From positions 124,001-188,000 of the forward strand of contig NEEC01000018.1 in assembly GCA_002189035.1 (NCBI GenBank): a stretch of DNA of 64,000 nt. Direction: 5' to 3'. The number at the start of each line of letters is the position of its first letter. Position 1 is the stretch's first letter. Shown here piece after piece: positions 35,747 to 55,799 of the stretch. The notes below the pieces were generated by a model, which was not told where the DNA came from, searched no databases, and worked only from the letters and a program-made list of their open reading frames with translations. The position numbers were made by a program, and so were the translations under genes. Source of the DNA: Utricularia gibba. Lineage: Eukaryota > Streptophyta > Magnoliopsida > Lamiales > Lentibulariaceae.

Positions 35747-36529
35747 TCACTTGAATTCATTGCAGCCTCCATGTACGAAACACTGTCCTTTGTTCTGCAC
35801 AGCATTCTCATTGATTTGTGTCATGTCCAATAAGTGGATTGCTCTTGCTGCTTCGGATTCGGAGTCGAATCTCTGAAGAGGAAGATAAGGTTGCGTCACT
35901 GTGACCATCCCGTTGTGGTACATCAGTGGCGGCTGCTGCAGGAGTTCACTTGGATGATTCCAATCTCCTTCAATGGAAGCTGATATTTGCTCTCCAATGC
36001 TGCTTCTAGGAGGATGTGAAAGACACAAATCTGAAGAATCCCACTTCAGGAAAGAATTGTGAGAAGCATTCATTTGATTGCTGTTGCTGTTGTGAGATGA
36101 AGGGACGTTTTGTCTAAGACCAAAACGACTCTCAGAAACACAAGGCCAACAGCCATCATTTGATTCACTGACTTTCAACCCTTGTTTATCAGATTGAGCA
36201 CTTAGCATGGCAATCAAGCTCTGACTCATGAAACTTCCTGGGGGAATCTGCAACGGCGGCAACTCATCAATATCTTTCTTTGCAGCGTTCATTAACCAAT
36301 CCACCACTTTGCTAGGCTGGCTAAGCCCTAGCCGGTCTTGAAGATCGTATATCTGAATCGCAGTCGGAACTGACAATCTAACCCTCCGATCCCTCAAACC
36401 CTTAACCGTACATACCTTGCTGTGCCTATCTTTCCTCCCAAAAGCTCTGGAGGCACCAACAATTCGAGGATCTTTCATCTTTGAGGAAGACCAGGATGAT
36501 GTTTTGGGGTTTTCACTTTGACTTTTCAT
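35747..36529 (-). CDS. TCP transcription factor, CIN type (TCP5/13/17-like), 260 aa
   Basis: Plant-specific nuclear transcription factor; this clade restrains cell division in leaf and petal margins. The coding region is a single exon. The TCP domain runs from about residue 31 to 92: basic region [19 protein letters not shown], then [20 protein letters not shown], then [14 protein letters not shown] with the loop and second helix, and [11 protein letters not shown] after it. The Leu-Ser-Val-Pro start of helix I and the [11 protein letters not shown] helix II are the marks of the TCP5/13/17 subgroup and differ from the TCP4 group; I saw no R domain and no miR319-type site, as expected for this subgroup. 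The remainder is Ser/Asn-rich. A likely 5'UTR exon ends at a GTTAGT donor near 36638, so transcription probably starts near or beyond 36.8 kb. Confidence 0.92.
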
Positions 36530-42444: not shown

Positions 42445-43707
42445 GTGATGCCACCTGGAATGGACTATCATGCGAGGAACAAGCTTAAGAGTGATGCCAA
42501 ATGCTACATATGGGATGACCCATATTTATGGAAGAGATGCAATGATGGTGTCATTCGAAGGTGTGTTCATGAAAATGAAATTCCAAAAATAATTGATTCT
42601 TGTCATGCAGTACCTTTTGGTAGACATCATGGACGAAATAGAACAGCAAGAAAAATTCTAGATTGCGGATTTTATTGGCCACATATTTTCAGAGATTGTT
42701 ATGCCCATTGCAAAGGTTGTGAACCATGCCAAAGGGTAGGAAATTTATCAAACCGAAACGAAATGCCCCAGCAAGGAATTCTGGTATGTGAATTATTTGA
42801 TGTATGGGATATAGATTTTGTTGGACCATTTCCTACTTCAGCAGGTTACAATTATATTTTGGTTGCTGTTGATTATGTGTCCAAATGGATTGAGGCAATC
42901 CCTACGAGGACTGATGATGCAAAAACTGTGATTAATTTTTTGCGCAACAACATCTTCACAAGATATGGGACTCCTAAGGCGCTGATCAGTGATAGGGGAA
43001 CACATTTTTATAATCAGGCCTTAAGGAGTGTTTTGAAGCATTTTAATGTTTGGTACAAGCCTTCTACAGCATATCATCCACAAACCAATGGACAAACTGA
43101 AGTCTCCAACAGAGAAATCAAACAAATTCTGGAGAAAGTTGTGAACCCAAGCAGAATAGACTGGAGCATGAGGTTGAAAGATGCACTTTGAGCTATACGG
43201 ACAGCATACAAGACTCCCATTGGAACCTCTCCATTTTGGTTGGTCTACGGGAAGCCTTGTAGATTACCATCAGCTCTTGAGCACAAGGCTTGGTGGGCTG
43301 TGAAGAAGTTAAATTTGGATAGAGACCTTAGTGCAAGCCACAGGAAACTCTAGCTTTCGGAACTGGAAGAGTTGAGAAATGATGCGTACGAGAGCTCAAA
43401 ACTATTCAAGGCTCGGACTAAGAGATATCATGACGTGCACATTTCCAAGAGAAATTTCGAGATTGGCCAGAAAGTCTTATTATTTCAATCCAGGTTGAAA
43501 TTGCATCCTAGGAAGTTGAAATCAAGATGGATAGGACCTTTTATTATGAAGGAAATTTTTCCAAATGGTGCTGTAGAAATATTTGACGGAGACTCAAACA
43601 AGGGATTTTTGGTAAATGGCCATAGATTAAAAATTTTCTATGAAAATGCTAACATGATCACAGGAAATCTGGAGGTGATCAAACTAATGGATTCACCAAA
43701 AACGTAG
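42445..43707 (+). pseudogene. Gypsy integrase, nearly intact, two stops
   Basis: The first open part (42445-43191) contains the zinc-binding HHCC domain: His in FGRHHGRNRTARK, then CEPCQR. The catalytic core follows with the first Asp in WDIDFVGPFPTS, the second in LISDRGTHFYNQ and the Glu in YHPQTNGQTEVSNREIKQ, so all three catalytic residues remain. TGA at 43189-43191 replaces the Trp of the usual LWAxRTA motif; a TAG near 43351 interrupts the next segment. The C-terminal open part (43372-43707) has YHDVHISKRNFEIGQKVLLF and LKSRWIGPF, the usual GPY/F-like module. It is a well-preserved but non-coding copy. Confidence 0.9.
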
Positions 43708-54325: not shown

Positions 54326-55799
54326 GTAATCGAGGGGGGTGTTGGCATTTGTGACCTAAAATTTTGAAATTTTAGCATTTTTGACCCATAACAAAATGAT
54401 CGGTTCGACATATTTGACCTGAACCGGTACCGGTTCAGTATATGTGACCCAAAATATTTACAAAATGATATATTTGACCTGTCAAAAATTTATTGCATGA
54501 CATATTTGACCCATAAAAAATTCAGTTTTGATACTTTTGACCCATAAAATATTATAACGGGGCATATTTGACCCAACGAAAAGTTATAAAAGTTTACGAC
54601 GGAGTCCGTTTGATCCAATAAGTTTACTGATGGTCCATGTTTAGTGTTCAGTTGGCATATTCAACTCAATAATTTGGCATATTTGACCCTTACAGTTTAA
54701 TAATCTGGCATTGTTGACCCTTAAGGTTCATTAAATTTGCATATTTAACCCAAAAAGTGTGACAAATTAACATAATTAACCCAATAAGTTTATTGAATTG
54801 GCATAAATAACCTATAAAGTTTTTCAAAATTTTAAACAAATTAAATACTTTTTGAAATAAATATTGATCAATAAGTGCCCTATAGACATGGGCACATCAA
54901 TCAATCCGAATATTCATCGTGTCAACCCACTACGATTCGAACCTGTGATGTCGTTGCAAAGTGAACTTAAGATTATTATCAGCATTTTTATACATCAGAT
55001 TTATTTCTAAACATACGATAACATGACAAATGCAAGAATTACAAAAATAATATTTTTATAAACATATGATATATGTTTCTTAAAATATAAATAATGTAAA
55101 TATGTTATTTATTAAACCATATAAAAAATATTTTTTATAAACATATGACATATGATATAGATTTATCAGCGCTCGATCCTTACACGCGACTCGGATCGAG
55201 CGCTGATGAAAAGGCCACACGGGCGTGGCTTATGCGTAAACGACGCCCGTGTGGCTTACAAGTTTATAAGCGCTCGATCCGAGTCGCGCAGAAGGATCGA
55301 GCACGGATAAAAAGGCCACACGGGCGTGGCTTGTGCGTAAACCACACCCGTGTGGCTTATAGGTTTATCAGCGCTCGATCCTTACGCGCGACTCGGATCG
55401 AGCGCTGATAAAAAGGCCACACGGGCGTGGCTTATGCGTAAACCACGCCCGTGTGGCTTACAGGTTTATAGTGCTCGATCCAAATCACGCATAAGGATCG
55501 AGCGCTGATAAAACCGGGTTCAATTATGTAGGTCAAATATGCTAAACCGGTAAACTATTTGGGTCAAATATGCCAAAATTGAAATTTTATCAGATTAAAC
55601 TTATCATTATTAAATGGGTGTGTTCTACATTAACAAAAATTCGTAGGTCAAATATGTCAATTCGTCAAACTTATGGGTCAAATATGCCCATTCACGAAAC
55701 TTTATGGGCCCGTTATGCCCCGTTATGAAAATTTCTAGGTTCTTTATATTTTAAACCCATAATTTTTAGGTCATATATGTAATTATCTCGTAATCGAGG
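54326..55799. mobile_element. TIR element with central palindrome array (54336-55789, 1454 bp)
   Basis: Flanked by an exact 10-bp repeat GTAATCGAGG (54326-54335 and 55790-55799). Termini read inward are GGGGTGTTGGCATTTGTGACC and GAGATAATTACATATATGACC, imperfect inverted repeats that become near identical at TGACCTAAAA. The left arm holds about fifteen copies of a CATATTTGACCCATAA word; the right arm holds the inverse (GGGTCAAATATGCC). The middle is the GC-rich palindrome array at 55163-55510. The 9-10 bp duplication points to Mutator-like transposition; no protein is encoded. Confidence 0.78.
55163..55510. repeat. Array of seven alternating palindromes (A-B-A-B-A-B-A)
   Basis: Two hairpin types alternate. 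Type A has 15-bp arms ATCAGCGCTCGATCC / GGATCGAGCGCTGAT around a 13-14 base loop: 55163-55208, 55264-55310, 55365-55410, 55467-55510. Type B has arms GCCACACGGGCGTGG / ACGCCCGTGTGGC around CTTATGCGTAAA: 55213-55255, 55314-55356, 55415-55456. The period is about 101 bp. The loops of A alternate in direction (TTACACGCGACTC, then its near reverse complement, and so on), while B loops all point the same way. It is GC-rich in AT-rich surroundings. A small ORF across it is a consequence of the repeats. Confidence 0.93.

Follow-up and report, generated by a model that had tools for sequence, protein, structure and literature searches.

A hairpin array of alternating loop direction at the centre of a foldback-armed, probably Mutator-like transposon of Utricularia gibba

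A G-rich 5' end is a trait of Mutator-like elements (MULEs) that the element described here shares, and plant foldback transposons include FARE of Arabidopsis, a likeness in kind only. The Mutator/Foldback family Tm1 of root-knot nematodes has composite arms of tandem motifs, 8-10-bp duplications, and a MULE transposase, and occurs in copies with and without the gene (PMC3169594, which names FARE in its reference list). In Drosophila, the long arms of Galileo grow and shrink via internal tandem repeats, deletion derivatives exist, and the repeats are cited as possible extra transposase sites (PMC3573991). Internal tandem repeats of foldback arms seeded longer satellite arrays in the case of Tetris of Drosophila virilis (PMC4079207). 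Foldback-armed MULEs and transposon arms growing by tandem repeats are known already. In the literature covered, mostly at title or abstract level and with few subscription journals, no recognisable account of the present family or of an inverted-dimer hairpin array appeared, which is a weak negative.

The window analyzed here is a stretch of 64,000 nucleotides of the bladderwort U. gibba, whose genome is very small. It holds a 1.45-kb transposon at 54336-55789, bordered on both sides by the 10-bp target-site duplication GTAATCGAGG, with an array of four A and three B hairpins at its centre (order A-B-A-B-A-B-A; Table 1). The seven alternating hairpins reported by the initial annotation at a period of about 101 bp are real: successive A hairpins are spaced 101, 101, and 100 bp apart, and the span given for them, 55163-55510, needed only a correction of its limits to 55162-55513. 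The A core pattern occurs four times in the window against a mean of 0.00 in 100 shuffles, and the B arm six times against a mean of 0.08 expected; the alternating array is not a chance product. The A loops read + - + -, and the three B loops share a single direction. Hairpin A4 belongs to a different A type, with a left arm one base shorter and 13/18 pairs if read ungapped. Folding, suggested earlier as a check, was run on 55156-55520 and was far better than that of shuffles (z of -21.8 for RNA and -20.1 for DNA), although in the best predicted structure the array folds as a whole into a single long hairpin and not into seven. An assembly artefact is not favoured, as the alternation is also found on a separate multi-megabase contig in an insertion with its own target duplication. 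Elsewhere in the window, an open frame at 35747-36529 (-) corresponds to a TCP transcription factor of the TCP5/13/17 kind, with its nearest named relatives in Lamiales (Paulownia, Sesamum) and Genlisea aurea further down at 51% identity, and an open frame at 42448-43191 (+), read by eye, resembles the integrase part of an LTR retrotransposon.

Table 1. Features of the window transposon and of related insertions (positions are those of the window unless a contig is named)
Feature	Position	Strand	Description
Left target-site duplication	54326..54335		GTAATCGAGG; flank comparison
Left arm	54336..55161	+	starts GGGGTGTTGGCATTTGTGACC; ~31-bp repeats with motif GCATATTTGACCC on + strand
Hairpin A1	55162..55210	+	loop + (TTACACGCGACTC)
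Hairpin B1	55214..55255	+	loop CTTATGCGTAAA; A at unit position 71, as after A+
Hairpin A2	55263..55311	-	loop - (GAGTCGCGCAGAA); in the right arm, the mark G at unit position 43
Hairpin B2	55315..55356	+	loop CTTGTGCGTAAA; G at unit position 71, as after the dimer's A-
Hairpin A3	55364..55412	+	loop + (TTACGCGCGACTC); probable left-array/right-array deletion joint in or just after the A3 unit
Hairpin B3	55416..55457	+	may derive from right array
Hairpin A4	55465..55512	-	loop - (AAATCACGCATAA); counterpart of C1 right-terminal A; without the marks of the dimer's A-
Right arm	55514..55789	+	motif GCATATTTGACCC on - strand; terminus AATTATCTC
Right target-site duplication	55790..55799		GTAATCGAGG; flank comparison
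PF10551 (MULE transposase)	C1:3326274-3326543	-	within C1 element, ends as in window copy; decayed
Exact duplications			window GTAATCGAGG; C1 CTGAAAATTC; C415 CCCATGAAG; C4:2124612 GTTGCTTAT; C142 GTTTTGAAA

The ~31-bp repeat of the left arm was also called by TRF (period 31). All eight left-arm hits of its motif, from 54375 to 54751, lie on the + strand and all four right-arm hits, from 55530 to 55687, on the - strand, with 13 hits in the whole window against 1.6 expected. Compared with the reversed right arm, the left arm shows scattered short blocks only, the five best with 74-85% identity over 34-64 bp. The arms are of the foldback type, being long, inverted, and built of short tandem repeats, with an imperfect inverted match.

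Copies were sought in the window's own genome (100,091,633 bases in 516 contigs) with each arm as query. The left arm gave at least 40 genomic matches (40 of 476 candidates scored) and the right arm 34 (29/29 candidates scored), and the left arm is ~95% identical to that of the copy at C4:2124612. The copies have sharp, slightly variable ends in common (GGGGTGTTGGCATTTG on the left, AATTATCTC on the right), and short direct duplications, differing in sequence between copies, border several of them. Among nine insertions with both ends located at up to five mismatches, five carry an exact 9-10-bp duplication (that of C142 placed one base further out from the left end) and one, on C413, matches at 9 of 10 bases. 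The remaining insertions are C2:2156, without a clear duplication, and two on C4 whose flanks match each other and not themselves; the C414 copy was left uncounted as its flanks are the same as those of C415. The two on C4 (1959124-1962344, L028, and 1967031-1970073, L029) match crosswise (GTTCTAAAAG; TTAAT..TATAG), as they would after recombination between two copies. The insertion of C414 is also present on contig C415 (50 kb), together with two more copies whose left flanks are identical (L010/L011, L038/L039), so that C415 may represent an alternative haplotype containing an internal duplication.

A relative of the window element is the 6.85-kb copy at C1:3322133-3328982, which has the same ends and its own duplication. 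It carries a hairpin array on either side of a decayed Mutator-type transposase gene, with A loops reading - + - + - + in the left array and the right array ordered B A- B A-. Between the arrays, separate minus-strand open frames match the Pfam MULE domain (2.6e-10) and a zinc knuckle (4.5e-4), while the MuDR domain, at 0.003, stays under its cut-off. A MuDR DNA-binding domain was found in the C213 copy (6.7e-6), and further MULE hits lie within two copies (C213, C317) and close to a third (C2:3298). These transposase pieces are decayed, and no intact transposase appeared in an element with these ends. The MULE, zinc knuckle, and MuDR hits in relatives place the family among Mutator-like elements, and the window copy most likely derives by deletion from such an element with foldback-type arms. 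The element is of a known kind, and its array is unusual.

Over its last 117 array bases (55397-55513), the window has 99% identity with the C1 right array (L009 9491-9607), and the A3-B3 unit matches a left-array unit of C1 at 99/101 bases. An inter-array deletion is therefore most likely. In C1, C2:3298, C4:2369, and two C415 copies, the left array is succeeded by the gene-side stretch GTGGACTTGRGACTGAGAAATGC, which the window, C415:8951, and C4:2124612 copies lack. The gene of the window copy would thus most likely have been lost when a deletion brought the left and right arrays together in or next to A3; the homology is observed, the event itself reconstructed from it.

In the initial annotation, the A loops were said to reverse at each step by repeated inversion of A units through their own arms. 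The reversal stands as a pattern and is unsupported as a process, since marks along the unit track loop direction. Three window A-B units that resemble the left array of C1 were compared with the five complete C1 left-array units, leaving out window A4 and the last left and last right units of C1, none of which is followed by a B. Without flipping, units of the same direction agree at 92-99 of 101 bases and units of opposite direction at 80-85, a difference that persists when the 13-base loop is excluded. Unit position 43, in the right arm of A, is T in + and G in - units, and position 71, in the loop of B, is A in + and G in - units, each in 8/8 units. Exact label permutation with the loop excluded gave 2/70, the observed labelling and its mirror, which is the minimum possible for a test of only eight units; it gave 5/126 with the complete right-array unit of C1 added and 1/35 without unit w3+, whose B may come from the right array. 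With marks and direction coupled throughout the eight units, what repeats is most likely an inverted dimer of 202 bp (A+ B A- B), which most likely predates the separation of the window and C1 insertions. Two unit types whose differences are common to every second unit, here 8/8 left-array-type units, are a trait of higher-order satellites. The earlier expectation that tandem duplication would keep all loops in one direction does not apply if the duplicated piece is the 202-bp dimer, as alternation is then kept.

The marks characterise the A- B half of the dimer rather than - loops at large, because the only complete right-array unit of C1 combines a - loop with A at 71 and T at 43. One unit in each of three further copies (L010_3488, L013_3364, L043_1252) likewise has G at 43. 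In C1, the loop of unit c4+ is the exact reverse complement of the A- loop, and its marks are of the + type, a combination that calls for another flip, gene conversion, or a recurrent change. Exact loop inverses of this kind, in c4+ and in a pair of the C4:2369 copy, fit separate inversion of each A unit by cruciform resolution or template switching at every amplification step, as do A arms complementary at up to 18/18 bases and the very short foldback-templated inversions documented in yeast at breaks (PMC11724301). We nevertheless consider this process very unlikely, as the marks outside the loop co-segregate with direction in all eight left-array-type units and no flip is seen in two insertions with at least seven central A units.

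What survives of the earlier proposal, besides the recurrence of the alternation in C1, is a likely local inversion of A on at least one occasion. In none of the eight units is a spacer flanking A or B reversed, which limits the inverted piece to A. GAGTC or its reverse complement is present in all eight dimer loops and in 0/88 other A-like loops (96 collected), and the + and - loops of the dimer, one of them flipped, agree at 10-13 of 13 bases. The one-directional spacers beside A and the GAGTC common to the eight loops make at least one local inversion likely. The GAGTC state favours a unit inverted inside the array over one brought in from the opposite arm, though gene conversion could mimic it. 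A variant of the dimer reading dispenses with inversion in the array and has a left-arm (>) A joined to a right-arm (<) A at the element centre and then amplified, which gives the same dimer a different origin. Left-arm AT-rich A-like units with 62-bp spacing all read > in six copies (C415:8951, C4:2124612, C413, C4:1959, C4:1967, C375), right arrays read <, and the left arrays followed by gene-side sequence (C1, C2:3298, C4:2369, two C415 copies) end in a > unit, all as this variant would have it. We hold it to be possible but rather unlikely, since GAGTC in both + and - units would need later gene conversion, and the near identity of the dimer loops after flipping also speaks against it. Inverted duplication of A around B was rejected as the origin of the dimer in the window and C1, where the spacers flanking B are not inverted copies. 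It may apply in the C4:2369 copy, where L012 2581-2672 forms a palindrome of 92 bases (44-base arms, one mismatch) centred on B and terminating in A arms.

Alternation was found in 2/4 insertions with at least four GC-rich A units. It recurs in the C1 left array, while in the C4:2124612 copy 7/7 central A loops point in one direction, including two left undecided by the first loop parsing and settled by full-loop scores of 11 to 1 and 9 to 2. The C415/C414 copy has 7/8 A loops in one direction, six scored by full loop and one 12-base loop read directly, with the eighth nearly symmetric and unassignable. The search for alternation in other genomic copies, as the initial annotation had proposed, thus returned both outcomes, and the one-directional A loops that it had named as a refutation were seen in part of the copies. 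Shorter left arrays in C4:2369, C2:3298, and C415 (33927, 22381) have mixed directions without the dimer: in C4:2369, one A loop is the exact inverse of another, and C2:3298 and the C415 copies likewise have left-array A units of both directions together. A mixed pair may therefore predate the window/C1 lineage. The single direction of B loops, correct for the window (3/3), does not extend to the family, as the C415 copy has two loops of TTTACGCATAAA and four of CTTATGCGTAAA or CTTATGCGTAAT. An isolated A hairpin at C2:3141836 has neither the arm motif nor an element end within the surrounding 5 kb. A tentative reading, which we think somewhat improbable, is that A (and B) hairpins are sites of recurrent inversion in place, with the dimer founder, c4+, C4:2369, and some C415 B loops flipped independently. 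If so, the element would be a natural record of inversion at hairpin arms, multiplied by tandem amplification.

The array is conserved no better than the rest of the element. Between the window and C1, identity is ~93.5-94% for the left arm, 94.5% for the right arm, and 91-98% for same-direction array units, so the earlier contrast of nearly perfect hairpin arms with a diverged remainder fails between copies. Window units w1+ and w3+ agree at 97/101 bases and w3+ and C1 unit c2+ at 99/101. With w3+ closer to c2+ than to w1+, no homogenisation is visible after the copies split, and the gene-conversion-like upkeep once suggested also conflicts with an excess of broken over compensated pairs. The A set of 26 units (22 distinct, of 96 collected, with at least 13/18 pairs; without L026, L027, L032, and two L043 units) has 60 broken and 7 compensatory cells of 396, and the B set 122 and 6 of 660. 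Outside the three outermost pairs, 42/70 broken B cells are transitions at the four CpG pairs, which suggests methylated, decaying copies. That selection or conversion maintains a conserved, functional RNA or DNA structure for which the alternation matters is extremely unlikely in our view. The strong folding and the strict alternation in both left arrays that have any are in its favour, and the pairing of the A set is reached by only 61/2000 shuffles, a figure biased upwards in paired share because the units were chosen for pairing. Substitutions in both sets mostly break pairs, the CpG transitions are those expected of decaying methylated DNA, and Rfam gave no match at gathering scores in L020 or L044, the C1 copy included.

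The history that we consider probable is that of a central (subterminal) array of a non-autonomous foldback-armed MULE, shaped by a founder inversion, amplification of the resulting dimer in tandem, and an inter-array deletion. The inversion of one A hairpin relative to its neighbour would have taken place in an ancestor common to the window and C1 copies and yielded the 202-bp dimer, with template switching or strand exchange between the 18-bp arms as the likeliest route. The dimer would then have been amplified in tandem like a satellite, which would make strict alternation automatic and a single founder inversion sufficient. The element presumably moved as cut-and-paste MULEs do, leaving its 9-10-bp target duplications. 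By analogy with proposals for other transposon-arm repeats, the array might perhaps provide extra transposase binding sites.

Tandem arrays with a ~2.33-kb monomer on C196, C150, and C183 (L020, L021, L022), and also on C209 and C210, contain a B hairpin and A-like units. They share blocks of ~80-88% identity with the arms of the family, as compared with the collected loci only, which suggests a satellite from a relative of the transposon family. Genome-wide, the exact B pattern is matched 218 times in the forward direction, and among the matches listed most lie in contigs with these arrays. With related hairpins in 2.3-kb tandem arrays of the same genome, the family is a possible satellite source.

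An odd-looking array thereby acquires a readable history, that of a MULE whose gene lay between two hairpin arrays and was probably removed by a deletion through them, with a higher-order repeat arising inside a transposon. The family resembles plant MuDR-type MULEs in its 9-10-bp duplications and in the MULE transposase domain and zinc knuckle of the C1 relative. It differs from them in putative terminal inverted repeats that are loose arrays of a ~31-bp motif rather than one clean repeat, and in hairpin arrays that adjoin the gene. Tm1 has a motif of ~14 bp and another host, and no alternating palindrome array is described in the part of its report available (PMC3169594). Galileo belongs to the P-element superfamily and not to the MULEs (PMC3573991). 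Tetris has repeats of ~220 bp and is apparently non-autonomous, its transposase not being named in the abstract; its likeness to the present family lies in the 2.3-kb arrays, which may show the same seeding of a satellite from within foldback arms (PMC4079207).
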